Source: Corallium rubrum (taxonomy: Eukaryota > Cnidaria > Anthozoa > Scleralcyonacea > Coralliidae). From it: 64,000 bases of DNA. A program made the translations under genes and the position numbers. The notes under the pieces were generated by a model, which was not told the DNA's origin, searched no databases, and saw only the letters and a program-made list of their open reading frames with translations. Positions 15,539-42,046 of the stretch are shown here, in pieces (position 1 is the first letter of the stretch; each line of letters starts with the position of its first letter). Where the stretch lies: positions 756,001-820,000 of the forward strand of contig OZ036008.1 in NCBI GenBank assembly GCA_964035015.1, read 5' to 3'.

Positions 15539-15540
15539 TT

Positions 15541-16066: not shown

Positions 16067-16138
16067 AAATATTTTAAATTCTATATTACATGTACGCGTG
16101 TTACTAATGACCTCCTCGCCTAGACTTGTCTAATCCCC

Positions 16139-20603: not shown

Positions 20604-20796
20604 CAGATTTTATGAAGTAGTCCGCAGACTTAAAGAAACCTCATTTTGAATGTACGGAGAGAAATATGTCAAATGCCGGCGTTTTTAAAGCCTTATATTC
20701 ACAGCCTATACTAGCATAAGGGAAAATTGGGAATTTCAGTCGGTTTAGGTACTAGCACCACCTTTTTTACTCAGAAAACGCCCAACCACCCCTTCA

Positions 20797-22732: not shown

Positions 22733-22747
22733 ACATTAGGTTATGTT

Positions 22748-23344: not shown

Positions 23345-23347
23345 ACA

Positions 23348-24583
23348 CTAATACTGAATAGACTGAAGCTGGCCATTAGCCAGGTTGATTAACCCATCCG
23401 ACAGCACGTAAAGGTAGCAGGTACAGGCAGTGGTCCCAGCACTTTTATCAACCTCGATAAGTATTCCGTTCTGTGTGTCAGTCAGCTTTACACCCTGGCC
23501 CTGTACCCTCTTTAGCGCTGTTGTTGAAAAGTCGCAGACCAAGGCAAACTTATCACTGAAGAAATTCGCCTCACTAACATTCCTATCAAACCGGTCATCA
23601 CTTGGGAAGAACACCCGGCTAGCCTCACTGAAGAAATCGTACTTCTTCATCGACTGTGTGTACAGGAAGTTTGGCTGGCCCTGAAAACTTATCTTAACAC
23701 TCTCAATAGATGGGTAGTAGAAAGACTCACTTCCGTCAGTAGTTCTCTTGAAGATCATCACGATATTTCTCATGGACTTCCTTGGCAAGTTCACATTCTC
23801 ATGAATTTTAGTGCTAGCAGCAGTAACTGGGAAGGTCTTAACCAGGGTGGCGTGACTGTAATAGGAAGACTTCCCCCTGCTGTAAATCCCCTCAACCTCG
23901 CCTGCTAACATCTCATTCTCGACTGTCTCATACCTCAACTTAAGGTTATCCAGCTTAAAACTGTTTGGCACAGCCTTACCACTACCACCGGGGAGTAACA
24001 CGTTAGCTGGTGTGTTAATTTTTAGTATGGTCTCATGTGTGTTCTGAAGTGCCTGGGGATAGATAGCCCCATTTTCACTAAGCCAGTCATCATCAATAGG
24101 TACTGTGAACCTGTCACCATAGACGCCATTTACAAGAGCATCACCAGCAACGCTAGAATCACCACTTACGTCCTGACTCCTTAGCTTAGCAAGGTTCACA
24201 CTCCCACCAAGACCCTGGTCAATTTTTCCAACCCGCTTTGACTTAGACCAGAGGTCCTCGTAGCATCTAAGAACATGGGCTTCATTCAGATCCCTATATA
24301 TTTCACCATTAAGCTTATGGGTTACTTGCTTAAACAGTGTGGACTTAAGGTTGTTCTGATGGTATGACTCCTTGTTACCATTTTTCAGGGTGAATGTAAG
24401 CATCCTACTACCAGGAATTAGTACATGATTAACTGGTAGTGTCGACAGCTTTACATACAGGTCCTGACCAGAGGATATATGTGTTGGGTTAAATGTTACG
24501 TCGACTACTCTCCTAGTGCCTTTCTTACTACTGTCTGGTTTCTTTAGTTTGTAGCTTGGAGTTATTCTATCTTCCTGCAACAT
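23348..24583 (-). CDS. Putative Polinton major capsid protein (double jelly-roll)
   Basis: This has 411 codons and starts after TTAGTCTATG. Near residues 30-110 are blocks typical of Polinton capsid proteins: LPVNHVLIPGSRMLTFTLKN, then NLKSTLFKQVTHKLNGEIYR and EAHVLRCYEDLWSK. The pattern is a long hydrophobic strand, then a conserved 'NN..........NG' strand and an aromatic-rich 'Y.DLW' turn. Length is a little below the usual 450-600 residues. Strand-rich composition continues to the end, with no membrane segment. The frame is intact. The assignment rests on these blocks and on position next to the packaging ATPase; a structure prediction would decide. Confidence 0.65.
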   Translation of the reverse strand: MLQEDRITPSYKLKKPDSSKKGTRRVVDVTFNPTHISSGQDLYVKLSTLPVNHVLIPGSRMLTFTLKNGNKESYHQNNLKSTLFKQVTHKLNGEIYRDLNEAHVLRCYEDLWSKSKRVGKIDQGLGGSVNLAKLRSQDVSGDSSVAGDALVNGVYGDRFTVPIDDDWLSENGAIYPQALQNTHETILKINTPANVLLPGGSGKAVPNSFKLDNLKLRYETVENEMLAGEVEGIYSRGKSSYYSHATLVKTFPVTAASTKIHENVNLPRKSMRNIVMIFKRTTDGSESFYYPSIESVKISFQGQPNFLYTQSMKKYDFFSEASRVFFPSDDRFDRNVSEANFFSDKFALVCDFSTTALKRVQGQGVKLTDTQNGILIEVDKSAGTTACTCYLYVLSDGLINLANGQLQSIQY

Positions 24584-24598
24584 AGACTAAGTTATATC

Positions 24599-26116
24599 TT
24601 ATTTCTTCTTTCCATACCTATCATAAACCATCCATACGATCGCCAGAACCAACACCCACAGATTGCTGGCCAACCAAGCCAACCCCATAACACCATACTT
24701 TAGCAGAGCAACTACCAGGTTACCGACAGCCATGATAATAGGACCTAGCACTGGACCAAGTTTCCTAGCCAACTTTCTGAAGGTATTATAGACCGACCGT
24801 CCGAATGATCCAGCAGCGTTAGAACCTATTTTAATATTGTGACGCAACCCTATGATTACAGTAGTCAGAAGGCTAGCCAGACCCACAGCAAGAGATGTCG
24901 CACCAAGCCAGTTCTCCTTCATCCACTTCTTAAATCGTTCTAACCTAGAAAGATCTCTTATGCTCTCGTTGTTATCAACCTCCTCCTCAAACACTGACCT
25001 AGACTCTTTATATTTAGGGACTCCTCCTTTCTCAACAATGTGTATCAGATCGCTCTTCAGCTCAGCCACCCCACTAATATTCCTATACAGCTGCTCCTTC
25101 AGCGGGTCAGTCTCTCTCAAAGCCTTCAGTCTGTATTCATTAGCCAACTGGTCCAGTGCTTCTATCTTAGTGTCAGCATCCCCCCTAGGATCCAGCATCC
25201 CTGAGAACTCACGAATCTCCTGCTCTGTAAGCTCACTGACCCTCTCACGTAACCTCCCACCGATCTCTGAAATAGATGACTCAACTATTTCCATTGTTAC
25301 ACTTTCAGGTATATCTGGCAGATAAATTGGGTCAATGCCAGTTCCATCAAAAATGGTGGTGTCATTAAGGTCATTAATAAGTCTACCTATCCTTTCCCCT
25401 GGCTTTGGTTTCTTGTAGTGTTTGTTCTTTTCCCTTACCATACTCTCAATCATCTCAGGTGTGTGTTCAGGATATTCATTTTCACTAACAACATCACTAA
25501 CTACTTCTTTACTTACCCCTATTTCATCTACCAATGACTCTATATAGCGACTTGTAAGCACTACTACATGTTCAACTAGTTCGGTGAACTCCTTCTCTAT
25601 GTCTGACCCCACATTAAGTTTCTCAGTGATAGGGTTACCACTATCATCATTACGGGATGTGTTAATCAACCTGACGTCTACACTACGGTAACTAAGAGTT
25701 AGCTCGTGACCACCTGATACGACTTTCCCACTTTTCCCAAAAGAGACGCCTCGTATTATTTCCAGACCAGGATTATTATTTAGTAGTGGTCTAGTGGTGA
25801 GACCTTCAGATACAGTTAAGAATGATCTGATAAGCCTAACCGCTCTGACCTGTTTATATCTCGGCAATTTTTTACTGAAGGTGCCTTTATTAGTTGCCAA
25901 ATTGTTAACGAAGTTCTGTAGATTATACTTAACTCCTACTCTCCTCACATTAGTAATGTCCTTACCCTCATAGTTTATGTCCTCGTCAATCCATTTAGTC
26001 TCAGCATAAGGGTCTTCATCCTGAAATAACGGGTCACCAGATTCTGACCACTCTTCACCATCCCATTCAGGAGGATTGTTTTCAAAGTCGTCAAATACGT
26101 CACCACCTTCGGCCAT
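24599..26116 (-). CDS. Polinton large membrane protein, acidic N-terminus
   Basis: This has 505 codons and starts after TTAGTTTATG, four bases from the integrase stop. The first 50 residues are strongly acidic (DDFENNPPEWDGEEW). The middle is helical and charged. The C-terminal 110 residues hold a hydrophobic segment (LAVGLASLLTTVIIGL) and a long hydrophobic stretch with two or more segments ending VLAIVWMVYDRYGKKK. The plan (acidic start, helical middle, C-terminal membrane part) is repeated in the smaller protein at 33789-34706. No family recognised; a virion membrane or internal protein is possible. Confidence 0.78.
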   Translation of the reverse strand: MAEGGDVFDDFENNPPEWDGEEWSESGDPLFQDEDPYAETKWIDEDINYEGKDITNVRRVGVKYNLQNFVNNLATNKGTFSKKLPRYKQVRAVRLIRSFLTVSEGLTTRPLLNNNPGLEIIRGVSFGKSGKVVSGGHELTLSYRSVDVRLINTSRNDDSGNPITEKLNVGSDIEKEFTELVEHVVVLTSRYIESLVDEIGVSKEVVSDVVSENEYPEHTPEMIESMVREKNKHYKKPKPGERIGRLINDLNDTTIFDGTGIDPIYLPDIPESVTMEIVESSISEIGGRLRERVSELTEQEIREFSGMLDPRGDADTKIEALDQLANEYRLKALRETDPLKEQLYRNISGVAELKSDLIHIVEKGGVPKYKESRSVFEEEVDNNESIRDLSRLERFKKWMKENWLGATSLAVGLASLLTTVIIGLRHNIKIGSNAAGSFGRSVYNTFRKLARKLGPVLGPIIMAVGNLVVALLKYGVMGLAWLASNLWVLVLAIVWMVYDRYGKKK

Positions 26117-26119
26117 AAA

Positions 26120-27208
26120 CTAACCAATATTATGGATATCACTCTCAGGTACCCAGCTATTATGCTTGCTATCATACCCGAGCCACTTCACCAGGGCCAT
26201 CTTCTTTTTCCTCTTAAGTATTTTCTCCACCCTATAAACATGATCCTTCTTAACAACAGCACTTAGCTCCTCTTCATAAAACTTACCAATTATTGGCTCA
26301 CCCTCTAAGTCCTCTATTTCATAAACATTTGGATCACCCCTAATTACTTTAGTCACCTTGAATAGTTCCTCCGTGAAGTTAGCCTCATAACCCTTAGTGA
26401 ATGTGCTTTTGTACTTACTTATCCTAACAGTGTCACCAACTTTAAATTTAGCTAGAGGGTATTCCCCAAAGGTGTGGCCAAATAAGGTGTTCCACACTTC
26501 AGCCTCATTACTTTTATTCACATTAGCAGGTTTCATCAGTATAGTTCTATGCTTACTGTTATTGTAATTACTAACCAGCGAGTCTAGAACATCAGTCCAC
26601 TTATATGTTCCCTTACTGTAGAAGTACTTCCACATAGCCGTCTTTAAGGTTCTGTTGAACCGTTCCACAACAGCAGCCTTCTTATCTGATAGAGTGCTAA
26701 AGTACTTAGCACCAGCTCCCTCCAGTAAGGACCTTACCCCAACATTGTAAAATTCCTTGCCATAGTCAAACTGAACCAGTTCTGGATCCGCTCCAAAACG
26801 CTTCTTAAATTTCTTAAGCAACAACGTTACCGCCTTGGTCATACTTCCAGTGTCTTTCCTATACACAGGGATGGCAAAGGCATATCTGCTTAAAATTTCA
26901 ACAGCCGTCAATATCCAACGGTATCCACCATTCTTATTCCCATACTTACCCATATCAACAAGATCCATCTGCAGCTGCTCACCAAGGTAGTAAACCCTAG
27001 TCTGTCTGAACTTATGCTTACTAACTATTTTCCTGTACCGTGTAAAAGTGTCCTGTGATTTCAACCATTCAGTGACCTTACTCCTACTCGCACCGGGGAG
27101 ACCATCAGCCAGTGCTTTCTGGTAAAGTCTCTCAGATGACTGGTAACCAGTTGCTGGGTTATAGTATATATCTCTCAGCCCCTGTTCCAATTCTATGTCA
27201 TTGTCCAT
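26120..27208 (-). CDS. Polinton integrase (RVE-type) with C-terminal chromodomain
   Basis: This is 362 residues. The catalytic triad is seen as LQMDLVDMG (first Asp, about residue 80), LVQFDYGKEF (second Asp, about 143) and AAVVERFNRTLK (Glu, about 182), the D,D(35)E spacing of retroviral-type integrases. Before it lies a helical N-terminal region without an evident HHCC. After it comes a beta-rich stretch (KFKVGDTVRISKYK), then a chromodomain: VYRVEKILKRKKKMALVKWL and NSWVPESDI, with the aromatic cage positions Tyr/Trp/Trp present. Chromodomains steer integration to marked chromatin in related elements. The start follows GAGTATATG. The frame is intact and all key residues are present. Confidence 0.93.
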   Translation of the reverse strand: MDNDIELEQGLRDIYYNPATGYQSSERLYQKALADGLPGASRSKVTEWLKSQDTFTRYRKIVSKHKFRQTRVYYLGEQLQMDLVDMGKYGNKNGGYRWILTAVEILSRYAFAIPVYRKDTGSMTKAVTLLLKKFKKRFGADPELVQFDYGKEFYNVGVRSLLEGAGAKYFSTLSDKKAAVVERFNRTLKTAMWKYFYSKGTYKWTDVLDSLVSNYNNSKHRTILMKPANVNKSNEAEVWNTLFGHTFGEYPLAKFKVGDTVRISKYKSTFTKGYEANFTEELFKVTKVIRGDPNVYEIEDLEGEPIIGKFYEEELSAVVKKDHVYRVEKILKRKKKMALVKWLGYDSKHNSWVPESDIHNIG

Positions 27209-27842
27209 ATACTCTACGAGATGTACAGCTCCAGCAATATGCTCCCAAAACCATTCAGCGGGTTTCCATTCTGATCTGTCACATGGAATTCCAACTCATT
27301 TATAACACCTTTACCAATTTCCAGCTCTGTCTCAATGTCAACAAATGACTGTGTCGAACCGAACAGCGGCTGCTCACTAGTGACTGGAAGACTTACTTAC
27401 TAGTATTACTCTTCCTTCCATTGTATAAATTCATTGATGTAGTTATCACATTACACATTACAATCAGGTACTTAAGCCCGTTGTTCACATTTATCAGCCC
27501 ACTCTTTGTGCTACTACCTGGTAAGAATATACGGGTGCTGAATCCTAGTAAAGATGCTAAGTTGTTGTGTAGTACTAGCGTCGTGCTACTGTCGGTCACC
27601 ATCGTACACTTAGCTTCTGGTTTACTAAGTGTTAATGTAACCCCGCTGTTCCCCTCAAGTATCTTCTTAAAATCCTGGAATGTATAATAACCATCTCCAA
27701 GGAATTTGTTCACCCTCTTATTGTGAACATAGTAGTTACCCTTACTGCTGGTCACATTAAAGTACTCCCACATTATGTAGGACTTCTTCAGCAGAATATG
27801 AGGATTTTTCCCTGTCATTATAGGCTCCTCCAATCTAATCAC
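27209..27842 (-). pseudogene. Putative Polinton virion protein, frameshifted near its C-terminus
   Basis: The open part (stop at 27393) is best started at the ATG at 27818, which follows CCTATA; the longer frame would need GTG. It contains GYYTFQDFKKIL, NLASLLGFSTRIFLPG and LKYLIVMCNVI. These are blocks I associate with a common invertebrate Polinton protein thought to be a minor virion component. After the stop, another frame continues with LPVTSEQPLFG, INELEFHVTDQNGNPL and ILLELYIS, the expected C-terminal strand pattern of that family, ending 27 bases before the integrase start. So the gene seems to carry one frameshift near 27393-27400. Family assignment is moderate, the frameshift likely. 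Confidence 0.55.
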
Positions 27843-27962
27843 CTTTTACGATCCTTCTATCAGCACAGTTAGTTTCCTCATAGTATAGATCATATTATGG
27901 TAACATCTACCAATAGCTGTCGTGGGTGGTTACGCAGTAAGCAGGCTTATATACCCTAATAT
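27843..27962. promoter_or_regulatory. Divergent intergenic region of the Polinton
   Basis: These 120 bases separate the left-arm genes (minus) from the right-arm genes (plus). They contain TATATACCC, CATAGTATAGATCATATTAT and CTAATATATG at the right-arm start. All genes of the element run outward from here, so a bidirectional promoter is the natural reading. Confidence 0.45.
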
Positions 27963-28326
27963 ATGAGTCTGAATTTAGGTTACTCAGTGTCACCAGGAAG
28001 TAATGAAGTCACTGACGACATTGACATGAAAAATTTCAGGATAACCCAAAGCACACCGGCCACTGATGACAACCCCTGATAAATAAAAAGTATGCCATAG
28101 ACAAATTCGCCAAGAAGGAAAATTACAGACTTAACGCCACAATGGTCTGGTACTACCCAACAGCTGGTGGAACGCCGAATTCGTTAGGCGGTAACACCTA
28201 CCCGATGGTCCCAGTAAGTAAGGACACTATGATAAGAATATTATGCCACTCGTTCGACACAGATGGCGTTGTGCCTGACAACGTAGTGCAGGTCACGTAC
28301 AGGCTGTACTATGTTACCTACAGAGC
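27963..28326 (+). pseudogene. Interrupted Polinton gene, 5' part (unknown product)
   Basis: Starts at ATG after CTAATAT. The first frame runs 38 codons to a TGA at about 28077, beside a run of C. The next frame then continues without stop through KKENYRLNATMVWYYP and NVVQVTYRLYYVTYRA until 28326, where the nested element begins. The two frames together look like one gene with a one-base indel near CCCC. Strand-rich, aromatic sequence suggests a small beta-barrel virion protein, but I recognise no family. The 3' part lies at 33033-33258, beyond the insertion; coordinates and frame agree if the insertion and one copy of the 6-bp duplication are left out. Confidence 0.6.
28321..28326 (+). repeat. 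6-bp target duplication CAGAGC (left copy)
   Basis: CAGAGC stands directly before AGTAGATGACCC. The same hexamer follows the other terminus at 33027-33032. Six base pairs is the duplication size of Polinton-type integrases. Confidence 0.93.
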
Positions 28327-28385
28327 AGTAGATGACCCCCCCCATCCAGTGTATCAAAGGGATGCCGCCTCATTAATATTCAGCG

Positions 28386-28450
28386 TGACTCACGCATGAC
28401 TCACGCACCATGACTCACGCATGACTCACGCATGACTCACGCATGACTCA
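28386..28450 (+). promoter_or_regulatory. Array of six AP-1-type sites (left arm)
   Basis: The palindromic heptamer TGACTCA occurs at 28386, 28397, 28411, 28422, 28433 and 28444, mostly on an 11-bp period (one helical turn). A TATATAA box follows at 28502-28508, about 50 bases away. TGACTCA is the consensus for Fos/Jun-type bZIP factors. The array is mirrored at 32903-32967. Confidence 0.8.
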
Positions 28451-28501
28451 CGCCTGTGACATGTTTGGACAAGACTGGAATATAGTTAGTGCGCATGAAG
28501 T

Positions 28502-28508
28502 TATATAA
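28502..28508 (+). promoter_or_regulatory. TATA box of the BH1-like gene (left arm)
   Basis: TATATAA lies about 50 bases after the AP-1-type array and 141 bases before the ATG at 28649, the right order for a pol II promoter. Mirror copy at 32845-32851. Confidence 0.6.
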
Positions 28509-28648
28509 ATTGAATAATATGGAGACTTTGAATATTATATTAACCTTTATGATCAAACGGTCTTATACACGTTTTGTGGCAATAAGTGTTAACAAATTTA
28601 GAGAGTTATCGTTTACTTTGGCCTAGTTTGTAGAGGAACGAAACAGAA

Positions 28649-29034
28649 ATGGATAGAGACACTTTATATTTTTTATCTTAAACCTGGTTTGTAGGAATTT
28701 AGCGGGTTTTTGGTTAAGTAATCTTAGTGTTATTTACGAAGAGATGAATGTTGACAGTTTTGGTCGAATTATCGCTTATCTAACCCTAGTGTATAGAGTA
28801 TACGAATCCTTGGATGAAGAATCAATTCGAGAAGCCGTAAAAAGAAGAACGATCAATGATTTCATGAGAAAATATAAACGGAATAACTCTTCAAGCTGGT
28901 TGCTACGCTTTCTGTTACTAACGGTGATATTTGCATATTTATCTCAGTGCACGTGCAGGAGACAAAAGAGAAACTCGTTAGGGGCAATTAAGAGGATTAA
29001 GCGCTTAGGCGAGTCTAGGCGAGAAAGTCATTAG
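28649..29034 (+). CDS. Small Bcl-2-like (BH1 motif) membrane protein, left arm
   Basis: The clear frame is 28744-29034 (96 residues). It opens with MNVDSFGRIIAYLTLVYRV, matching the BH1 core of Bcl-2 proteins ((N/S)-(W/Y/F)-G-R-(I/V)-x-A-(F/Y)-(L/F)). A helix with NDFMRKYKRNN follows, where family members have the helix before BH2, and then WLLRFLLLTVIFAYL, a likely membrane segment. The same frame is open 69 bases upstream (AGFWLSNLSVIYEEM fits the helix before BH1). There it meets a short ATG frame starting at 28649 at the heptamer TTTTTTA (28669-28675), placed in the register needed for -1 slippage. No BH3 motif is visible. Family members oppose or promote apoptosis at mitochondria; the role here is inference. 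Convergent with the ATPase gene. Confidence 0.55.
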
Positions 29035-29102
29035 CGTCATCACAACAATCAGTTTAAAATATTTATTTCGGTTTTCGTTCAAACATATACATATAAAAAG
29101 TT

Positions 29103-30434
29103 TTAGTAAGGTCTGCTTCTTAGATTATATTTAGGTGTTTTTATTTTAAAAGTAGCATGATAATCTTTCTTGTCTTCTGGTGATAATTGGGACACATCTT
29201 CTTTTGTCATGGGTAAATATTTTGATCTAGTCATCATTAGATGGTGTTCATACTCTTCTCTATCATCCGGAGTCATCTTTGCCAAGTCTTTCTCTGTCGG
29301 GTCGCCCAAACTTTCCCAGTTATGAAAGAAATTATGTTTAAGCGTCGGTTGTTCAACGGTAGGAGGCGGTGTTACAAAATAGGTTTTAGGTGTAGCAGGG
29401 AAACCCCACGGAAGATCGTCAGTTTCTTGCTTTATCTCCGGTGTCAAATTTGGTGTATTTTGCTGAGTTTGAAGATTAGTCAGAGGTTGAGACTGATTTT
29501 GCAGTTGGTTTTGAAACGTCAGAAAACGTCCTAGCTGATTGGAGTAAAGTATGCTCTTTTCTTCAGGTGTTAACTGTGGCGCTTGTACAATATCTTGCAT
29601 TTTTTGTTCTGTATTGTACATGGCATTAACGATCGGAGGTAATTGATAGGATTGCTTTTGTATGAAACTACCCAGCTGTTGCTGCAGGCTGGAGCTATTT
29701 TCTCCAGGTAGAACATTGGTCTTGAGGCGGTGATCGTCGTCCGTAGTCGGCTTTAGATCAAGCATTAAATAACCATGAGGGCGACTTGTGGCTTCCTCGT
29801 AACTCTTCATAAATTCATGGACATGACCTGGGTTCACCTGCCGTGCCAAGACAGAAATTTGTTGCTTATCCCTCGGAGACTTGAATAGTACGATATAGTG
29901 TGCGTTGAGGCTGATGTTTCTGGTTTCTTTGCCTTGATGAAATATATTCTGAACAATGTAGATCACGGAGAGATTCCTGTGATGACTTCCTTTAGTAAAT
30001 AGACTAGCAATACGTTTATCTCCCCCTGATTGAGCCATAAGATCATCGAGGACGATCAGGTTACGTTGTGAGACTTCAAGAAAATTATCAGAGTCAATGT
30101 CGGAAGGTATACCCTCATAGAATTCGATGCCTGGTATTGTTTTGATCATTTCTAAATACATGGGCTGCCACTGTCCATAGCACCAAATGATACGTTCGGG
30201 AGGAGGATTAATCGTAGTTTTGGCGTTTTCAAGAAGTGTTTTCACCCATACTGTTTTACCACTTTGGGTGCACCCTGCTACAATACACGTGAACGGGTGC
30301 TGCATGACTGTAGATACGTTGGCTAGAGGAATAGGTTGCGAGGCGTCGCTCTCGGGGTGGACATTCTTAATATGACGAAGAAGGTGCTCTTTTCTCGATA
30401 GACTTTTTCCGCATTTGTTGCAAACGTGTGACAT
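29103..30434 (-). CDS. Zinc-finger P-loop ATPase, left-arm copy
   Basis: I start at the ATG at 30434 (GTAAACATG context); the frame is open nine codons further up but only from TTG. The result is 443 residues. Residues 4-25 form a C2H2 finger (CNKCGKSLSRKEHLLRHIKN). The ATPase core follows: CIVAGCTQSGKTVWVKTLL (Walker A), ERIIWCYGQWQPMYLEMI, RNLIVLDDLMAQSGG (Walker B), TKGSHHRNLSVIYIVQNIFH (sensor block with Gln) and IVLFKSPRDKQQISVLARQ. These blocks resemble A32-type packaging ATPases known from animal virus-like elements. The C-terminal 200 residues are Gln/Pro-rich and end in a basic tail. A poly(A)-type AATAAA follows at about 29065. No frame breaks. Confidence 0.85.
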   Translation of the reverse strand: MSHVCNKCGKSLSRKEHLLRHIKNVHPESDASQPIPLANVSTVMQHPFTCIVAGCTQSGKTVWVKTLLENAKTTINPPPERIIWCYGQWQPMYLEMIKTIPGIEFYEGIPSDIDSDNFLEVSQRNLIVLDDLMAQSGGDKRIASLFTKGSHHRNLSVIYIVQNIFHQGKETRNISLNAHYIVLFKSPRDKQQISVLARQVNPGHVHEFMKSYEEATSRPHGYLMLDLKPTTDDDHRLKTNVLPGENSSSLQQQLGSFIQKQSYQLPPIVNAMYNTEQKMQDIVQAPQLTPEEKSILYSNQLGRFLTFQNQLQNQSQPLTNLQTQQNTPNLTPEIKQETDDLPWGFPATPKTYFVTPPPTVEQPTLKHNFFHNWESLGDPTEKDLAKMTPDDREEYEHHLMMTRSKYLPMTKEDVSQLSPEDKKDYHATFKIKTPKYNLRSRPY

Positions 30435-30566
30435 GTTTACACGATGAGTACTAAACACCAAATGAGTTTATTATTTGGAAGCGCAATGCTTAAATTATTT
30501 AACCAAATTTCTGCAGAGGATCTAAACACCCAAACACCCCCGGGGGTAACCCCAAACACCCCTGGG

Positions 30567-30786
30567 CACTCCAATAACCCCCAGGGGTGTTTGTGGGTTA
30601 CCCCCGGGGTGTTTGGGGTTACCCCAGGGGTGATTGGGGTACCCCAGGGGTGTTTGGGGGTTACCCATGGGGTGATTGGGGTACCCCAGGGGTGATTGGG
30701 GTACCCCAGGGGTGTTTGGGGTTACCCCCGGGGGTGATTGGGGTACCCAGGGGTGTTTGGGGTTACCCCCGGGGGTGATTGGGGTA
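30567..30786 (+). repeat. G-rich spacer at the palindrome centre
   Basis: Imperfect tandem units of about 20 bases (GGGGTGTTTGGGGTTACCCC, GGGGTGATTGGGGTACCCCA) run through the spacer and into both arm ends. The strand has regularly spaced G-runs of four or more and also local self-complementary GGGGTACCCC blocks. It is the only asymmetric segment of the element and the turn of any hairpin formed by a single strand. Confidence 0.9.
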
Positions 30787-30918
30787 CCCAGGGGTGTTTG
30801 GGGTTACCCCCGGGGGTGTTTGGGTGTTTAGATCCTCTGCAGAAATTTGGTTAAATAATTTAAGCATTGCGCTTCCAAATAATAAACTCATTTGGTGTTT
30901 AGTACTCATCGTGTAAAC

Positions 30919-32250
30919 ATGTCACACGTTTGCAACAAATGCGGAAAAAGTCTATCGAGAAAAGAGCACCTTCTTCGTCATATTAAGAATGTCCACCCCG
31001 AGAGCGACGCCTCGCAACCTATTCCTCTAGCCAACGTATCTACAGTCATGCAGCACCCGTTCACGTGTATTGTAGCAGGGTGCACCCAAAGTGGTAAAAC
31101 AGTATGGGTGAAAACACTTCTTGAAAACGCCAAAACTACGATTAATCCTCCTCCCGAACGTATCATTTGGTGCTATGGACAGTGGCAGCCCATGTATTTA
31201 GAAATGATCAAAACAATACCAGGCATCGAATTCTATGAGGGTATACCTTCCGACATTGACTCTGATAATTTTCTTGAAGTCTCACAACGTAACCTGATCG
31301 TCCTCGATGATCTTATGGCTCAATCAGGGGGAGATAAACGTATTGCTAGTCTATTTACTAAAGGAAGTCATCACAGGAATCTCTCCGTGATCTACATTGT
31401 TCAGAATATATTTCATCAAGGCAAAGAAACCAGAAACATCAGCCTCAACGCACACTATATCGTACTATTCAAGTCTCCGAGGGATAAGCAACAAATTTCT
31501 GTCTTGGCACGGCAGGTGAACCCAGGTCATGTCCATGAATTTATGAAGAGTTACGAGGAAGCCACAAGTCGCCCTCATGGTTATTTAATGCTTGATCTAA
31601 AGCCGACTACGGACGACGATCACCGCCTCAAGACCAATGTTCTACCTGGAGAAAATAGCTCCAGCCTGCAGCAACAGCTGGGTAGTTTCATACAAAAGCA
31701 ATCCTATCAATTACCTCCGATCGTTAATGCCATGTACAATACAGAACAAAAAATGCAAGATATTGTACAAGCGCCACAGTTAACACCTGAAGAAAAGAGC
31801 ATACTTTACTCCAATCAGCTAGGACGTTTTCTGACGTTTCAAAACCAACTGCAAAATCAGTCTCAACCTCTGACTAATCTTCAAACTCAGCAAAATACAC
31901 CAAATTTGACACCGGAGATAAAGCAAGAAACTGACGATCTTCCGTGGGGTTTCCCTGCTACACCTAAAACCTATTTTGTAACACCGCCTCCTACCGTTGA
32001 ACAACCGACGCTTAAACATAATTTCTTTCATAACTGGGAAAGTTTGGGCGACCCGACAGAGAAAGACTTGGCAAAGATGACTCCGGATGATAGAGAAGAG
32101 TATGAACACCATCTAATGATGACTAGATCAAAATATTTACCCATGACAAAAGAAGATGTGTCCCAATTATCACCAGAAGACAAGAAAGATTATCATGCTA
32201 CTTTTAAAATAAAAACACCTAAATATAATCTAAGAAGCAGACCTTACTAA
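30919..32250 (+). CDS. Zinc-finger P-loop ATPase, right-arm copy
   Basis: This is the exact mirror of the gene at 29103-30434, with an identical 443-residue translation and identical shadow frames on the other strand, so the DNA is the same or nearly so. It is transcribed outward from the centre, away from the left copy; both would be driven from the region around the G-rich spacer, where AATTATTTAACC / TTAAATAATTTAAG lie symmetrically. With two intact copies and no decay, the insertion must be young or the arms are kept alike by copying between them. Confidence 0.85.
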   Translation: MSHVCNKCGKSLSRKEHLLRHIKNVHPESDASQPIPLANVSTVMQHPFTCIVAGCTQSGKTVWVKTLLENAKTTINPPPERIIWCYGQWQPMYLEMIKTIPGIEFYEGIPSDIDSDNFLEVSQRNLIVLDDLMAQSGGDKRIASLFTKGSHHRNLSVIYIVQNIFHQGKETRNISLNAHYIVLFKSPRDKQQISVLARQVNPGHVHEFMKSYEEATSRPHGYLMLDLKPTTDDDHRLKTNVLPGENSSSLQQQLGSFIQKQSYQLPPIVNAMYNTEQKMQDIVQAPQLTPEEKSILYSNQLGRFLTFQNQLQNQSQPLTNLQTQQNTPNLTPEIKQETDDLPWGFPATPKTYFVTPPPTVEQPTLKHNFFHNWESLGDPTEKDLAKMTPDDREEYEHHLMMTRSKYLPMTKEDVSQLSPEDKKDYHATFKIKTPKYNLRSRPY

Positions 32251-32318
32251 AACTTTTTATATGTATATGTTTGAACGAAAACCGAAATAAATATTTTAAA
32301 CTGATTGTTGTGATGACG

Positions 32319-32704
32319 CTAATGACTTTCTCGCCTAGACTCGCCTAAGCGCTTAATCCTCTTAATTGCCCCTAACGAGTTTCTCTTTTGTCTCCTGCAC
32401 GTGCACTGAGATAAATATGCAAATATCACCGTTAGTAACAGAAAGCGTAGCAACCAGCTTGAAGAGTTATTCCGTTTATATTTTCTCATGAAATCATTGA
32501 TCGTTCTTCTTTTTACGGCTTCTCGAATTGATTCTTCATCCAAGGATTCGTATACTCTATACACTAGGGTTAGATAAGCGATAATTCGACCAAAACTGTC
32601 AACATTCATCTCTTCGTAAATAACACTAAGATTACTTAACCAAAAACCCGCTAAATTCCTACAAACCAGGTTTAAGATAAAAAATATAAAGTGTCTCTAT
32701 CCAT
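32319..32704 (-). CDS. Small Bcl-2-like (BH1 motif) membrane protein, right arm
   Basis: Mirror copy of the frame at 28649-29034, with the clear 96-residue part at 32319-32609 and the upstream ATG at 32704. Protein, slippery heptamer and flanks are identical to the left copy. It is read inward from the right terminus, driven by its own TATA box and AP-1-type array. Confidence 0.55.
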
Positions 32705-32902
32705 TTCTGTTTCGTTCCTCTACAAACTAGGCCAAAGTAAACGATAACTCTCTAAATTTGTTAACACTTATTGCCACAAAACGTGTATAAGACCGTTTGA
32801 TCATAAAGGTTAATATAATATTCAAAGTCTCCATATTATTCAATTTATATAACTTCATGCGCACTAACTATATTCCAGTCTTGTCCAAACATGTCACAGG
32901 CG

Positions 32903-32967
32903 TGAGTCATGCGTGAGTCATGCGTGAGTCATGCGTGAGTCATGGTGCGTGAGTCATGCGTGAGTCA
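32903..32967 (-). promoter_or_regulatory. Array of six AP-1-type sites (right arm)
   Basis: Mirror of 28386-28450. Because TGACTCA is nearly palindromic it reads TGAGTCA on the plus strand here. Confidence 0.8.
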
Positions 32968-33032
32968 CGCTGAATATTAATGAGGCGGCATCCCTTTGAT
33001 ACACTGGATGGGGGGGGTCATCTACTCAGAGC

Positions 33033-33258
33033 AACACAAGGTTCTGAGCTATTGGGTACACTAACTCTGGGGAATGCAGACAGGCATTATAGCGGTCACT
33101 GGTCTATACCTGTTAATCATGACTTTTACGTCAAAGACACTATATCAGTACAGCAGGCCAGCAATAAACCATCTGTCGGCTACATCTACCCAACAATAAC
33201 CGGACTGACTAGTGGTAATGAGAGCTGCCTAACTGTAGCATTCTATGAGCCTGTTTAA
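33033..33258 (+). pseudogene. Interrupted Polinton gene, 3' part
   Basis: Coding sequence resumes directly after the right copy of CAGAGC (33027-33032) and runs to TAA at 33256-33258. Blocks include LGTLTLGNADRHYSGHWSIP and PSVGYIYPTITGLTSGN, strand- and turn-rich like the 5' part. The last codons overlap the start of the next gene (ATG at 33245), as elsewhere in this compact element. Together with 27963-28326 it would make a protein of roughly 200 residues; the function is unknown. Confidence 0.65.
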
Positions 33259-33811
33259 TCCCACCCATATTATGACACTTAACAGGGAGAAGAGTATAAT
33301 AAGATTCAACCACATATCTGATAAGCTGAGCCAGGGGGAGGTTGAGATGTTAAAGTCACTTTACGAGCATTACCACATGATGGCTACATGCTACCAGTGG
33401 CAATTTAAGAGACTCTCTAGGATCAATCTTACCATGAACATGTCTGCTATATTCCTGACTGTTGCTGGCGGGGCGTTTAGCGCATTAGGTGGATTCGCTA
33501 CATTATCTATAAGTGCTGTCGGGCTTCTTATGCATGGGTATATCAAGAATAAGAGAATAGCGGAGAAAGTAAGTCAGTGCGAGGTTGCATACAAGAGCTA
33601 TACAAAGTCACTAAACACCATCAAAGGATATCTCAGAGGTATCGAGTTTGACAGATCCACAATGTTTAGCAACCTGACCATGGTAGACAATATAATAAAT
33701 GACAGCACTATGCCGCTGGAGAGGAAAATAAAGGATAGGTATAGCAGGGTATATAGAGGTCATGCGTATATGAAATCATCGGAGTATTATGACGGGCTTC
33801 GAGGAGTTTGA
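33245..33811 (+). CDS. Polinton membrane protein, two hydrophobic segments
   Basis: This has 188 codons, starting inside the last codons of the preceding gene (14-base overlap). Residues about 66-98 form a hairpin of two hydrophobic segments (SAIFLTVAGGAFSALGGF and ATLSISAVGLLMHGYI), flanked by helical charged regions (EMLKSLYEHYHMMATCYQW before, AEKVSQCEVAYKSYTKSLNT after). No family recognised. Short Gly-rich double segments of this kind occur in virion membrane or membrane-active proteins, but that is only a suggestion. The C-terminal 23 bases overlap the next gene. Confidence 0.75.
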   Translation: MSLFNPTHIMTLNREKSIIRFNHISDKLSQGEVEMLKSLYEHYHMMATCYQWQFKRLSRINLTMNMSAIFLTVAGGAFSALGGFATLSISAVGLLMHGYIKNKRIAEKVSQCEVAYKSYTKSLNTIKGYLRGIEFDRSTMFSNLTMVDNIINDSTMPLERKIKDRYSRVYRGHAYMKSSEYYDGLRGV

Positions 33812-34706
33812 AATGAACACTTTAGGTAGTTATGAGGTTCCCGATGATGATGGCAGTGTGGTTGCTGGTTATGAAGAAACAGATTTAGGTGGAACTGATC
33901 CTACATTGGGTGCTGACCCTGGAAGAGGGACTGTTAGATTTAGTCGGACTGGGGAAACCATATATCCAGACTTTGATGAGAACAGGCCAGACATAATCAG
34001 CGGTCGTAAAACCAGGACAGACCCGGAGTACATCGAAATGGATGAGCTTAGAGACAGGATTGACAGAAGTCATGTTAGTGAATTAGAATGGGACGACTGG
34101 GGTTTCAGGCCTGATAATCAGCCAGGTACTGTAGATTATGATGAAAGTGTTAACATAAGGCTTAATAATGAGGGTTCATTAATGAGAAGATGGGTCCGTG
34201 ATCTTTTCACTAACATTCTTAGTATTGGAGACTGTGCCGATCCTGATTTCATAGACTATCTTATTAATGATAAAATCCTAAGTATTGAAAGAAAGCCAGA
34301 TAATGCTTCCGACTACAGAGTTAGGTTCTTTAATCATGAGTTCGAGACAGCTGACAGGTCTATAGATATCGACACTAAGACTATTAGAGATGATATAAGG
34401 AACCTATATGACGAGTGGAGTGAAAGACTTAACAGAAGCACTTTGAAGAAGGTGGGTGTGATAACTGGTATCGGTCTAAGCATAGCGGCAATAGTCACAG
34501 GGCTAGCAGTTGGATTAACAAGAGGAGGTTCAGATGTGATACATGCGGGGAAGAAGAGGAGAAAGTGGGAGAAGCTTAACCCAGCTAAGGTAAGTATACC
34601 ATGGTCAGATATTGAGGAGGCTGGTGGAGATGTCCTAGTATTTACTGGTAAGTATCTCACAGTTATCTTAGCGGTATCTGCAGTGTATCTGATAGCAAGA
34701 CGGTAA
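33789..34706 (+). CDS. Polinton membrane protein, acidic N-terminus
   Basis: This has 305 codons and begins after AGTATTATG. The first 60 residues are acidic and Gly-rich (EVPDDDGSVVAGYEETDLGG). The middle contains RWVRDLFTNILSIGDCADPD. Two hydrophobic segments lie near 222-245 (VITGIGLSIAAIVTGLAVGL) and at the C-terminus (YLTVILAVSAVYLIARR), with a basic KKRRKWEK between them. The layout mirrors the 505-residue protein at 24599-26116, so the two may be distant paralogues. Function unknown. Confidence 0.75.
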   Translation: MTGFEEFEMNTLGSYEVPDDDGSVVAGYEETDLGGTDPTLGADPGRGTVRFSRTGETIYPDFDENRPDIISGRKTRTDPEYIEMDELRDRIDRSHVSELEWDDWGFRPDNQPGTVDYDESVNIRLNNEGSLMRRWVRDLFTNILSIGDCADPDFIDYLINDKILSIERKPDNASDYRVRFFNHEFETADRSIDIDTKTIRDDIRNLYDEWSERLNRSTLKKVGVITGIGLSIAAIVTGLAVGLTRGGSDVIHAGKKRRKWEKLNPAKVSIPWSDIEEAGGDVLVFTGKYLTVILAVSAVYLIARR

Positions 34707-34729
34707 GTAAACCTGAGGTAATCTATAAG

Positions 34730-35083
34730 ATGACTGACAGCAAACCTGAGGTAATCTATAAGATGACTGACAGTAAAGACCCTAAGATTACTACCGAGGT
34801 TAAGACTAAAGATCCCAAACGTGTTGAGGCAGGTAAGAGGTTGGCAGCAATCTCCAAAGCAGCAAAGGAAAAGAAGATGAAGGAAAGGATAAAGATGGAT
34901 GAGTCAGATTCCTCATGGTCATTACCTTCTAATGGATACATGTTAGGACTAGCAGGACTTCTGGTAGCGGGTGTGTCATTATACTTCACATGGAAAAGTG
35001 ATAGGAGGGAGGTAGCTGCTGCTGTTGTGGCTGACACAGCTGAGCCAGTTGCAAAGACCATGAGCAAGCTGGAGACATTGTAA
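34730..35083 (+). CDS. Small Polinton membrane protein with duplicated start
   Basis: This has 117 codons. A 33-bp direct duplication (units starting at 34711 and 34744) repeats the leader and first codons, giving two in-frame ATGs at 34730 and 34763 and a protein start that repeats KPEVIYKMTDSK-like sequence. The rest has a Lys-rich stretch (KAAKEKKMKERIKMDE) and one membrane segment (GYMLGLAGLLVAGVSLYFTW) near residues 65-84. Either ATG could be used; the second lies in the same leader context. No family recognised. Confidence 0.68.
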   Translation: MTDSKPEVIYKMTDSKDPKITTEVKTKDPKRVEAGKRLAAISKAAKEKKMKERIKMDESDSSWSLPSNGYMLGLAGLLVAGVSLYFTWKSDRREVAAAVVADTAEPVAKTMSKLETL

Positions 35084-35101
35084 CTAAATATCACTAGTAG
35101 T

Positions 35102-35335
35102 ATGTCGGCTCAGAGGAAGGAACTTATGAATGAAGGATTCGACGCTGTTTTAGTTACGGTGGGAGTTTTACTGTTTAGTATGGCTAGTAAGAAATTGCTG
35201 AGGGAGCCGCTAACATCGGCTGAGAGTATGAAGTCATATGTGAAGCTAGCAGTTGGTATCACAGCATCAACACTAACTGTAAAATACCTGCAGCAGAAGA
35301 AGTATATACCTGAGGACCCCTTCAAGAATACCTAG
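35102..35335 (+). CDS. Small Polinton protein, two hydrophobic stretches
   Basis: This has 77 codons, starting after CTAGTAGTATG, the motif shared by other genes of the element. Hydrophobic stretches AVLVTVGVLLFSMASKKLL and VKLAVGITASTLTVKYL suggest a short membrane protein. It sits in a head-to-tail row with the neighbours (18 and 8 bases apart). No family recognised. Confidence 0.62.
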   Translation: MSAQRKELMNEGFDAVLVTVGVLLFSMASKKLLREPLTSAESMKSYVKLAVGITASTLTVKYLQQKKYIPEDPFKNT

Positions 35336-35343
35336 GTGACATT

Positions 35344-35769
35344 ATGGCAGGTGCATTAGCAGGTGGAGCTCTTCAGACAACATTCGCTGCATTAAGTTTT
35401 GCTGGGGCAGGTTTCCTATTTAACAAGCTTAACCACACTGGATATGAGAAGGAAATTAAGAGACACAACCTAAGCATGGAGAAGCTGGCAGCAGCTAAGA
35501 AAGCGTTCTATGAGAATGAGATAAGACATAAGGACAGACTGGCTCAACTTAGAGCGGAGTTAAGTGATGCCAACGCCGACATAAATACCACTAACAGGGC
35601 CTTGGATAAGCTGAGAACATACACCTCAAATGGTATGACCTTCAGGGATGAACCTAAACTTGGAGACTTCTATAAACCTTCTAAGGAGATGCAGAAGTAC
35701 CAGGCGATGTTTGTTGCTATAGCGGGAGTCTCTGTAGGTTTCATAGCACATAGGGTAGGGATTATTTAA
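35344..35769 (+). CDS. Small Polinton protein, coiled coil between membrane segments
   Basis: This has 141 codons. The start is hydrophobic and Gly/Ala-rich (GGALQTTFAALSFAGAGFLF). Residues about 40-95 are a charged helical region likely to form a coiled coil (EKLAAAKKAFYENEIRHKDR). The end is a second hydrophobic segment (MFVAIAGVSVGFIAHRVGII). Such a plan fits a small structural membrane protein. Function unknown. Confidence 0.7.
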   Translation: MAGALAGGALQTTFAALSFAGAGFLFNKLNHTGYEKEIKRHNLSMEKLAAAKKAFYENEIRHKDRLAQLRAELSDANADINTTNRALDKLRTYTSNGMTFRDEPKLGDFYKPSKEMQKYQAMFVAIAGVSVGFIAHRVGII

Positions 35770-35781
35770 AGATATATTCCT

Positions 35782-36309
35782 ATGCTATATTATATGGGTA
35801 GAAGGGAAGACTATGTGGAGCGAAGATTCAGGAAAATAGATGAGATGTACACATGTGATGACTGTGGTGGCCAACGTATAAACTGCCATGGTTTTCCGAC
35901 CTGTACATCATGTGGCCTACAAGGACCTTTCACAGTACCTGTACCAGAGTTGGATCTAATGTCATGGAGCAAGAGGAAGACTGTTCATAAGAGAAGTAAG
36001 TGGTTTGCTAGAAGGATAGCGGGAGTTGTTAATAGTTCTGATGAAAGAACGTTGACAGCTGATTTCATAAAGGTTGTGTCAGTGCTGATGAGACTTAACC
36101 TGATAGGAAAAAATGTAAGTAGGTACAGCTACTATATAATAAGGTTGGCCAGTCGCAGAGGACTAACACTACTCACAGACGTCAGTGACATGTGTGATGG
36201 ATATAGTAAGAACATGTTTGATGATCGGTTGTTCGGATCTGTATATAGGGAGCTGGGTTGGGACATTGATTGCAGATGTCTTATGTTCCTGAAGTGGAAG
36301 GACACTTAA
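35782..36309 (+). CDS. Zinc-ribbon protein, possible VLTF3-like transcription factor
   Basis: This has 175 codons. Residues 24-43 hold a zinc ribbon, C-x2-C ... C-x2-C (CDDCGGQRINCHGFPTCTSC, with CG at the end). After it comes a helical domain (KRSKWFARRIAGVVNSSDER, RLNLIGKNVSRYSYYIIRL, FGSVYRELGWDIDCRCLMF). An N-terminal ribbon plus helical repeats is the plan of VLTF3-type late transcription factors of large DNA viruses and of TFIIB. The resemblance is one of layout and of a few positions only. If right, it would pair with the start-proximal motif found in front of many genes here. Other zinc-binding roles are possible. Confidence 0.5.
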   Translation: MLYYMGRREDYVERRFRKIDEMYTCDDCGGQRINCHGFPTCTSCGLQGPFTVPVPELDLMSWSKRKTVHKRSKWFARRIAGVVNSSDERTLTADFIKVVSVLMRLNLIGKNVSRYSYYIIRLASRRGLTLLTDVSDMCDGYSKNMFDDRLFGSVYRELGWDIDCRCLMFLKWKDT

Positions 36310-36334
36310 AGAAATAATTTTATATACCTAGTAT

Positions 36335-37099
36335 ATGCCCAGTAGATATAGGAAAGTCGCTAGTGATCTGGTAAGTTATATAGAGAAGAATCACCCAGAG
36401 GTCTTATTAACAGCAAGGTCTACGGACGGTAAAGGTCTCGGGTTACCCAACATCGTAATACTTGAGAGGAGGGGTGGTTACACGGGGTTATCAATGTGGG
36501 TGACGTCAAAGATAACAGACTATAGGATGGATCAAATGGATAGGTTCGTGATGTCAGGACATGCTGTAACAATATCTGATGACTATGACAGCCTACGCTC
36601 TGCCCTTACGTATTACCTGTCGTTATACCACCCGGGTGGTTCGGGTGATTACATGACGGATAGTAGACAGTTAGATCTTGTAAAGGACCTGAACCGTACT
36701 AGTGTGATTAATCCCTTCGAAAAGGGTGAGAGGACACCACTAACCCACGATGATATTGACATGCTATATGACGTTGTGGAATTTGTTATGAGGAATTATA
36801 AGTATGCAGCTATAATGCCAACGTCTTGGTCCGAGTCCGGTCCAGACATTACCATATTCTCAAAGAACTATATATACAATGGGTTGGCGATATGGTTAAG
36901 TGAATCCTCGGCGTGTTACAGACTATCCAGTTTAAGCCACAGTCAGTTTCATCACCTACTTAATACGGCTAAAAGGCCGTACTTAACCATATCGTCCCTG
37001 GACTATCAGGACATAACTGACATAATTGATCAGTATATGAGGGGGGAGTTTAATTATGGTGACCGCCTACCTAAGTTCTGCGAAGAGGACTGTCCGTAA
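36335..37099 (+). CDS. Tandem degenerate VRR-NUC-like protein
   Basis: This has 254 codons, starting after CTAGTATATG. Two halves share a plan: VASDLVSYIEKNHPEVLL...LPNIVILERRGGYTGLSMWV and LYDVVEFVMRNYKYAAIM...GPDITIFSKNYIYNGLAIWL, each ending in a 'YDSLRSALTYYL / YQDITDIIDQYM' helix. The same plan forms the nuclease part of the neighbouring protein at 37484-38299, where D-I-I-I-G and G-L-A-I-E-L-K carry the catalytic residues. Here the E-x-K is missing in both halves (SMWVT, AIWLS), so cleavage is unlikely. It may bind DNA or regulate the neighbour. The relation is inferred by eye from three aligned repeats. Confidence 0.6.
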   Translation: MPSRYRKVASDLVSYIEKNHPEVLLTARSTDGKGLGLPNIVILERRGGYTGLSMWVTSKITDYRMDQMDRFVMSGHAVTISDDYDSLRSALTYYLSLYHPGGSGDYMTDSRQLDLVKDLNRTSVINPFEKGERTPLTHDDIDMLYDVVEFVMRNYKYAAIMPTSWSESGPDITIFSKNYIYNGLAIWLSESSACYRLSSLSHSQFHHLLNTAKRPYLTISSLDYQDITDIIDQYMRGEFNYGDRLPKFCEEDCP

Positions 37100-37104
37100 C
37101 CGAC

Positions 37105-37308
37105 CTACTTTCCTATATAGGGCCGGTACCTGGGTGAGTAAACCCGGGGTTTTTTATGTTTAGATTTTTTACGTCTTAGCCTTGTGTAAAGACTATTAAG
37201 ATCTATTAACTCTCTCATCATTTTATCTATTTCTCTGTGGGGTACCTTTCCCTCCGACTCGCATATTTCATCGACCAGATTTCCTATATCACGCTCTATG
37301 CCCTCCAT
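37105..37308 (-). CDS. Small antisense-strand protein, helical and basic
   Basis: This 67-codon frame runs against its neighbours on the minus strand, with GACTATATG at the start. The N-terminal helix (IERDIGNLVDEICESE) is followed by a basic tail (RLRRKKSKHKKPRVYSPRYR). A second minus-strand small frame at 38247-38411 has a related KLVDEV helix. Coding status is uncertain. Confidence 0.4.
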   Translation of the reverse strand: MEGIERDIGNLVDEICESEGKVPHREIDKMMRELIDLNSLYTRLRRKKSKHKKPRVYSPRYRPYIGK

Positions 37309-37483
37309 ATAGTCAACGTAGAAAATACATTCTAATGGTAAACGCGTCTGACCTGCTGTTCTGAGAGGCCCTTAAACGGGGTGTTTGGCTATAGCATGAC
37401 TTTTCCCATATCGGGGAATGCCACATAATACCTGAGGTGCCAGGTGCGTTTAAATAAGTTTTATAAATATATAAACCTATAGT

Positions 37484-38299: not shown

Positions 38300-38411
38300 T
38301 ATACCTATCCACCAGTTCCCTCTCCATCTCAATTAAATTAAAAACTTCATCTACTAGTTTTTCTACTTGCTTACGGATCCTTAATATTCTAGCAAATACT
38401 ACATCTTCCAT
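38247..38411 (-). CDS. Possible 54-residue antisense small protein
   Basis: A minus-strand ATG at 38411 follows CTTATTAT and opens 54 codons ending at 38247, overlapping the 3' end of the Bro-N gene. Helical start ARILRIRKQVEKLVDEVFNL resembles the NLVDEI helix of the frame at 37105-37308. Two related tiny antisense frames in neighbouring gaps argue against pure chance, but weakly. Confidence 0.33.
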   Translation of the reverse strand: MEDVVFARILRIRKQVEKLVDEVFNLIEMERELVDRYIKFLKCKRSCGSICSDY

Positions 38412-38472
38412 ATAATAAGTATAGAAGATATAGTACGTTTAAATTATTTAATAAAAAATATACAGATATAGT

Positions 38473-42040: not shown

Positions 42041-42046
42041 AAAATT

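Follow-up and report, generated by a model that had tools for sequence, protein, structure and literature searches.

A palindromic element of Corallium rubrum as a probable non-autonomous satellite of Polintons

The red coral Corallium rubrum (Cnidaria; Anthozoa) carries, in the 64,000-nucleotide stretch analysed here (the window; NCBI GenBank assembly GCA_964035015.1, contig OZ036008.1, positions 756,001 to 820,000 of the forward strand), a 4,700-bp palindrome nested in a Polinton-type element. This palindrome is probably a member of a high-copy group of palindromic, non-autonomous satellites of Polintons, which would be replicated and integrated by a helper and would owe their arms to snap-back. 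The palindromic plan is found in many copies with 6-bp target-site duplications, with termini and a terminal box shared with Polintons, with end modules derived from Polintons, and with a constrained ATPase lineage of its own. Helper dependence and snap-back replication are what these features suggest.

Results

Architecture of the palindrome and its insertion site

The palindrome occupies 28327-33026, exactly the coordinates of the original prediction. Its two arms are gap-free, as had been claimed, and 2,262 bp long each with 4 mismatches; the earlier figures of 2,240 bp for the arms and 220 bp for the spacer have to be replaced by 2,262 and 176 bp. All differences between the arms are confined to 30567-30583, beside the axis. 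Chance is no candidate explanation for a 2.26-kb inverted repeat. The ends read AGTAGATGACCCCCCCC at one side and GGGGGGGGTCATCTACT at the other. The features of the element and its insertion site are as follows.

28327..30588, + strand: left arm, terminus AGTAGATGACCCCCCCC
30765..33026, - strand: right arm, reverse counterpart of the left arm
30589..30764: spacer at the axis, 176 bp, within a G/C-rich tandem array
30579..30824: central tandem array spanning the axis, G/C-rich units of about 21 bp
28321..28326: target-site duplication CAGAGC at the left, repeated directly and perfectly (6 bp) at 33027-33032
33027..33032: right target-site duplication CAGAGC, same hexamer as 28321-28326
28355..28375, - strand: conserved terminal box TAATGAGGCGGCATCCCTTTG, about 28 bp inside the left end
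32978..32998, + strand: conserved terminal box of the right end, counterpart of 28355..28375
28386..28453: tandem TGACTCACGCA units of the left end, with AP-1-like TGACTCA
32900..32967: tandem AP-1-like units of the right end, counterpart of 28386..28453
28744..29034, + strand: open reading frame (ORF) of 96 amino acids (aa), Bcl-2/E1B-19K-like (BH1-like), left arm; Bcl-2 match sub-threshold
32319..32609, - strand: 96-aa BH1-like ORF of the right arm, twin of the left-arm ORF
29103..30434, - strand: 443-aa ORF with C2H2 zinc finger and A32-like ATPase (Pfam), left arm
30919..32250, + strand: 443-aa zinc-finger ATPase ORF of the right arm, twin of the left-arm ORF
28142..28326, + strand: left piece of the interrupted host ORF, ending at the left CAGAGC
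33034..33258, + strand: right piece of the host ORF, in the frame of the left piece; the two are not joined

The TGACTCA within the terminal TGACTCACGCA units is an AP-1-like site. An ATPase and a BH1-like protein, each encoded twice, had been predicted; the first is borne out by a PF04665 A32-like ATPase match of the 443-aa ORF that exceeds the Pfam cut-off (its C2H2 finger falls slightly under it), and the BH1-like assignment keeps a sub-threshold match. By coordinate arithmetic on the separately read pieces, the frame of the host ORF is identical on either side of the palindrome. This ORF is broken at the left duplication and resumed in frame after the right one, which fits an insertion with a 6-bp duplication.

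Copies across the genome

A search with the terminal 274 bp found 45 matches in the 474-Mb genome, many as facing pairs, with 40 of 1,113 candidates scored. With at most one mismatch, the 20-bp terminal box occurs 691 + 686 = 1,377 times in the same genome, and its reversed control 0 times. In the first 100 boxes of the list, neighbours closer than 30 kb form 37 facing pairs, against 5 pairs in the other three orientations. A span of 4.4-7.4 kb is found for 27 of these 37 pairs, representing 54 of the 100 boxes, and 26 boxes have no partner. Extrapolation of 27 and 37 pairs per 100 listed boxes to all 1,377 would give about 370 short elements and 510 paired ones.

A total of 28 short elements were compared, namely that of the window, 13 from paired matches and 14 from consecutive box pairs. 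The 13 were picked since both ends were listed and so favour paired ends; the 14 were not picked for palindromy. The first 40 Mb of C1 contain 27 short pairs, from which the 14 consecutive pairs and L019 were taken in and 12 left out. Perfect 6-bp duplications flank 27 of the 28 elements: all 14 of the first group, the window included, and 13 of the 14 consecutive pairs, for which the AGTAG/CTACT ends with the best match served to locate the duplication. The exception is L046, for which the search for such ends found no recognisable right end. Self-complementary hexamers make up six of the 27 duplications (TATATA four times, CAGCTG and GATATC), with P about 3e-6 at an expectation of 1/64 that does not allow for base composition. 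The proposed search for other copies by the terminal sequence returned further palindromes at unrelated loci with duplications of their own, which refutes an artefact, and the claim of a transposable unit is borne out by hundreds of copies with 6-bp duplications.

The short elements have inverted termini AGTAG...CTACT, common to the full-length members. Over the outer 1.5 kb the arms are at least 95% matched in 12 of the 14 consecutive elements (exceptions L040 and L046), and over the outer 2 kb the arms of the first sample group differ by 0-10 substitutions. The central 300 bp consist to at least 60% of a tandem array in 21 of the 28. Two classes of ends were distinguished. AGTAGAT-type ends with AP-1-like clusters are present in 19 elements with 6-12 TGACTCA sites each, against about 0.6 expected per element; the other nine have AGTAGT-type ends and no cluster. 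Such clusters are also found in L028/L029 (5 + 5). As expected of a satellite, the genes for replication and integration are absent and the cis sites of a helper, the shared termini and the 20-bp box, are kept; no match to a polymerase, integrase or capsid gene was obtained in the 28 short elements.

Full-length Polintons with the same ends

Three Polintons of 13.3-14.7 kb (L024+L025, L026+L027 and L028+L029) have ends like those of the palindromes, are flanked by perfect 6-bp duplications and carry inverted repeats that measure only 175-506 bp. Nine of the ten pairs longer than 9 kb were examined, leaving out a 27-kb pair, and eight of the nine show a perfect 6-bp duplication, L034+L035 being without. 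Taken together, the full-length Polintons contain DNA_pol_B_2 sequence, 61-96% identical to an open ORF of L030 on which Pfam was run, and encode among others a 360-aa integrase with rve and chromodomain and a GRF zinc-finger protein. Their 124-aa protein gives sub-threshold matches to Adeno_E1B_19K (E 0.0047) and Bcl-2 (E 0.011). The ATPase of L028 has a C2H2 finger and an A32 score under the cut-off. Some of the reading frames concerned are broken.

A 449-aa protein, 98% alike among the three, is 43% identical to a colinear protein on the tubeworm-associated contig L002. We take it to be the putative major capsid protein, based upon its position, this match and a motif; a comparison with solved structures gave no match for it. 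Contig L002 additionally encodes a B-family polymerase, an IVa2/A32-like ATPase and an integrase with rve and chromodomain, and shows a sub-threshold match to the adenovirus protease. L001 and L002, filed under a symbiont bin of the tubeworm Escarpia laminata, are Polinton DNA and probably derive from the animal host. The integrase search in the coral listed 115 matches, the best 113 of 2,257 candidates being scored. Of the 115, 16 (14 of them without stops) belong to a second lineage with an identity of about 57%, which represents another Polinton family of this genome.

Palindromes built from Polinton ends

The element L030+L031 spans 11.7 kb, is flanked by the duplication GACACT and has arms of 4.4 kb that are 98% alike. 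Each arm includes a polymerase gene, and the asymmetric centre holds a single Polinton-type ATPase. Across 4.4 kb this arm and the left (polymerase) end of the full-length L028 share 95% identity. L038 (9.9 kb) and L039 (9.7 kb) are palindromic over their whole length, at 99.6 and 99.2%, and in their outer parts they match L024/L026 at the left end. Palindromes therefore arise repeatedly rather than only persist, since one of them derives from a different Polinton end.

The arm of the window element matches Polinton ends only in stretches of its outer 0.55 kb, at 77-90%: 77% to L028/L029 at the terminus, and 88-90% to L025/L027 further in. A Polinton end matching an arm, suggested as a check, was found for L030+L031 against L028; for the window element the match is confined to these outer stretches. 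In L040, L043, L051 and L052 the outer module matches the left end of the full-length L026 (77-98% by stretch) and joins the ATPase module (89-95%) at a shared point, position 598 in the arm of the window element. The four elements appear to have inherited this junction from one event. Both arms carry the Polinton end module in L043, L051 and L052, and because they agree over it, the exchange of the end affected both sides at once. One strand copied into both arms explains the matching modules; two independent exchanges at the same base are unlikely.

A separate ATPase lineage

The ATPases of the short palindromes form one clade with public homologues (98/99 support), and those of L028, L033, L038, L039 and the tubeworm contigs form a separate one (92/98). 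The tree is midpoint-rooted, and eight of its 27 inner branches are well supported. By stretch, satellite and Polinton-type ATPases are 38-49% identical, and their cores 45-53%. The palindrome ATPase is set apart by a C2H2 finger together with a long extension at the C terminus. An assignment of it as a plain Polinton ATPase was dropped after this identity and the separate clade were found. The median ratio of nonsynonymous to synonymous substitution rates (dN/dS) is 0.18, with range 0.00-0.52 for the 101 pairs whose dS exceeds 0.03, calculated from intact ORFs of 15 unique ATPases. Such ratios indicate that the satellite ATPase is under purifying selection.

Based upon a scan of the genome in which the best 95 of 2,206 candidates were scored, 87 of the 95 listed copies have no stop, a set of best-scoring copies being biased to intact ones. 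For 94 of the 95, none of the 115 listed integrase matches lies within 15 kb. The ATPase is present in both arms of eight sampled elements (that of the window, L011, L013, L014, L019, L045, L051 and L052). Others, for example L012, L022, L040, L042 and L053, have a single ATPase, and elsewhere a remnant or no match was found. Where both arms have it, the two copies are closer to each other than to those of the nearest other element in the sample in six of the eight cases and tied in two. The ORF L036:3453-3971 is chimeric, with a Polinton-type N-terminal part followed by a satellite-type C-terminal end, and shows that the two kinds of ATPase recombine.

Among public proteins 545 homologues of the ATPase were found; of the 120 listed, 13 clusters represent 60-225 sequences each, and two come from the coral Oculina patagonica. 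Public ATPases of the satellite clade are 75-84% identical in the core, and a sister group that includes Oculina patagonica reaches about 62%. Given these same-clade and sister sequences, the palindromic element may be old. Six metagenome contigs with ATPase homologues (P0001, P0018, P0021, P0022, P0037 and P0055) measure 4.7-6.4 kb, the size range of the palindromes, and are perhaps whole elements of other species; the other listed metagenome contigs are shorter, except one of 13.6 kb. No relative of the ATPase was found in phage records and IMG/VR by protein, profile or terminal box. A search against Rfam gave no match, and the ATPase profile matched almost only zinc fingers among solved structures.

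Other cargo

The 96-aa BH1-like protein is, from sequence comparison, a shortened relative of the 124-aa E1B-19K/Bcl-2-like protein of the Polintons, with Pfam scores that are all sub-threshold; among solved structures nothing credible was matched by it. A region encoding proteins of 224 and 105 aa lies in both arms of L012, L015, L016, L018, L022, L042, L047 and L053 and in one arm of L048. The two proteins resemble ATPase-adjacent Polinton proteins at 25-27% and 22% identity, respectively (E 1e-13, 7e-9 and 6e-4 in single comparisons). The median dN/dS of the 224-aa ORF is 0.18 (13 pairs).

Surroundings within the window

The palindrome had been claimed to be nested in a Polinton, and the surrounding element at 19577-43100 is indeed one by its inverted repeats, 6-bp duplication, integrase and ATPase. 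Its termini are AGTAGTATAGG, and its duplication is ACAGAC. The terminal box of the palindrome was not found in it at up to 3 mismatches. With no box, an integrase at 42% and an ATPase core at 21% identity, this host Polinton is a bystander and not the helper. The main features are listed here.

19577..43100: host Polinton-type element of another family, inverted repeats 19577-20601 / 42045-43100, duplication ACAGAC
26120..27208, - strand: host Polinton integrase, rve and chromodomain, 42% identity to the integrase of the end-sharing Polintons
22748..23344, - strand: host Polinton ATPase (Pox_A32), 21% identity to the palindrome ATPase core
13986..16986: another member, rearranged and decayed, with an ATPase remnant from 13986 on and a BH1-region at 16131-16634
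16935..16955, + strand: terminal box of the decayed member, from the box search

The decayed member has a terminus of the AGTAGTGATACC type at 16986, and no left end was found for it. We dropped it as proof of an ancestral palindrome, as it can be accounted for just as well by a single inversion of one arm. In the host Polinton, an ORF at 37484-38299 combines Bro-N, a VRR-NUC nuclease (at the cut-off) and a sub-threshold C2H2 finger. Directly outside the host Polinton, at 44517-48075, are large 25-bp tandem arrays in both orientations. Further on, the ORF of a Pao-type long terminal repeat (LTR) retrotransposon at 50037-57345 (DUF1759, reverse transcriptase, Peptidase_A17) is apparently split by a non-LTR element with endonuclease and reverse transcriptase at 53059-56235, the remaining Peptidase_A17 lying at 56497-57345.

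Discussion

A proposed satellite replicated by snap-back

Because ends, box and duplication length are shared, we infer that the palindromes are replicated and integrated by a helper Polinton: its protein-primed polymerase would start from the shared termini, and its integrase would insert the product. Protein-primed polymerases displace a single strand, and in related systems a palindromic strand folds to a hairpin that presents a duplex origin. The displaced strand of the palindrome would fold likewise, and the duplex end of its hairpin would be a complete origin. Copying out of the hairpin would make both arms from one, so that they would be identical after each cycle; an end captured by recombination would be present at both sides simultaneously, and the same step could make new palindromes out of Polinton ends. 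The central tandem array of 21 of the 28 elements may be the turn-round point that the model predicts. The model also predicts that arms are closer within than between elements and that ends are coordinated; the coordination is what the exchanged modules display. Snap-back of a protein-primed virus, the mechanism originally proposed, remains the best-fitting one given the arm of L030+L031 that equals the end of L028 and the coordinated ends, and is still deduced. The accompanying notion of a defective genome proved too small a reading, as the separate and selectively constrained ATPase points to a satellite that has persisted for long, and not to a by-product of deletion.

The element encodes an ATPase related to those that package genomes, and this protein most likely favours the entry of the element's own DNA into helper capsids, just as phage satellites employ packaging factors of their own. 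A trans-acting protein is kept in a non-autonomous element only if its encoder benefits, and packaging of its own genome into helper particles would fit. A satellite with a packaging-type ATPase under purifying selection would be indirect evidence that packaging matters to such elements in nature. The palindromic plan, apparently by snap-back, turns defective viral genomes into heritable families. We tentatively go a step further, to a possibility that we hold for somewhat less than probable: a true satellite of eukaryotic Polinton viruses, of a kind not described so far, with a palindromic linear genome that replicates by hairpins, takes its ends from any available Polinton, steals capsids by a private ATPase and has an infectious, capsid-transmitted cycle. 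If this is true, the selection on the satellite ATPase is a trace of that life cycle.

Several observations weigh against a helper-dependent satellite. The element is known from integrated genome sequence alone, from which particles, an extrachromosomal form, expression and mobility would have to be deduced. No match to the ATPase was found in eight of the 28 short elements (L015-L017, L020, L021, L023, L044 and L047), so it is dispensable in cis. One copy, C1:30757063, lies 5.2 kb from a truncated integrase, and scoring the best 95 of 2,206 ATPase and 113 of 2,257 integrase candidates could miss a Polinton with a satellite-type ATPase. An ATPase of the same long type, at 59% identity, is encoded in L036, and the paired boxes of L036+L037, 10 kb apart, enclose a polymerase gene. 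Several copies have a truncated or interrupted BH1-like ORF, and the 105-aa ORF is unconstrained (median dN/dS 1.16, 8 pairs). Arms are closer within elements in six of 13 cases for the BH1 region (five ties, two opposite) and in three of eight for the 224/105-aa module (two ties, three opposite). The opposite cases, L018, L042 and L053, are the elements with the most different arms; drift after insertion would give this pattern, which is not an independent test.

Other explanations

The palindromes could also be functionless deletion derivatives of Polintons, fossil defective-interfering genomes in which the ATPase rides along and owes its constraint to unsampled full-length Polintons with the same ATPase. 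Their ends do come from Polintons, L030+L031 is such a derivative, and the eight short elements with no ATPase match, the chimera of L036 by which ATPase kinds recombine and the long-type ATPase near the polymerase gene of L036/L037 all agree with this account. However, the ATPases of the full-length Polintons belong to another clade (L028 and L033 by the tree, L024 and L026 by identity), and 94 of the 95 listed satellite-type copies have no listed integrase within 15 kb. Moreover, the first 40 Mb of C1 contain 11 loci with a satellite ATPase, of which seven are box-paired at no more than 6.7 kb and four are unpaired, and the dN/dS between palindromes is 0.18. We therefore regard mere deletion derivatives as unlikely.

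An ordinary non-autonomous transposon with very long terminal inverted repeats, homogenised by gene conversion on the chromosome and not by snap-back, appears more improbable still. Chromosomal palindromes do undergo conversion, the identity of arms alone cannot date its origin, and in several elements the arms are no closer to each other than to those of other elements. Against it stand the palindrome from a different Polinton end (L030+L031) and the unequal arms of L042, L053, L040, L046 and the decayed copy in the window, which efficient conversion should prevent. Large perfect palindromes are also a familiar hazard of assembly and sequencing, by fold-back chimeras. Since 27 of the 28 short elements are flanked by perfect 6-bp duplications of their own, and the host ORF is back in frame past the second duplication, such an artefact has a negligible probability here.

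Comparison with known systems

A satellite of Polintons thus remains the preferred reading, and its novelty would lie in the combination of a foldback plan, a defective snap-back genome and a satellite; there is a real chance that it is a new class. The statement of the original prediction that no family of this plan had been described survived our literature search: no description of palindromic or non-autonomous Polintons was found in open papers, subscription papers and repeat databases being outside reach. In PMC8097293 the terms 'nonautonomous', 'non-autonomous' and 'palindrom-' are absent; in PMC6431247, passages on nonautonomous elements and inverted repeats concern no Polintons, and 'palindrom-' is absent.

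The closest relatives are Polintons/Mavericks (polintoviruses, adintoviruses), with which the palindromes share 6-bp duplications, AGT..ACT ends, a packaging-type ATPase and a Bcl-2/E1B-19K-like gene, and from whose full-length members in the same genome their ends are taken. Vertebrate Mavericks are described with ends (AGT)2//(ACT)2 and 6-bp duplications, and viral particles of Mavericks/Polintons as not observed so far, in PMC8097293. In contrast to Polintons, the palindromes measure 4.4-6.6 kb instead of 13-15 kb, are largely or wholly palindromic, have no polymerase, integrase or capsid gene, and possess an ATPase clade of their own.

Incomplete particles of adenoviruses are known for a symmetric genome structure. 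Like the defective snap-back genomes of that type, the palindromes would be palindromic duplicates of one genome end, made by a protein-primed replicator; unlike them, they are integrated in the germ line in hundreds of copies, as a lineage of their own with conserved genes. Incomplete adenovirus particles have been linked with the left genome end (PMC12090768). Foldback transposons (Drosophila FB, Galileo; PMC3573991) likewise consist mostly of a long inverted repeat, but the palindromes have 6-bp duplications, Polinton ends and coding sequence within both arms. Phage satellites that encode encapsidation functions have been described (PMC10690885). Those such as PICI (phage-inducible chromosomal islands) and P4 resemble the palindromes in being small, in using the ends and replication of a helper and in having a packaging-related gene of their own; the coral element differs from them in being eukaryotic, in its Polinton helper, which it would hijack, and in its palindromic genome.

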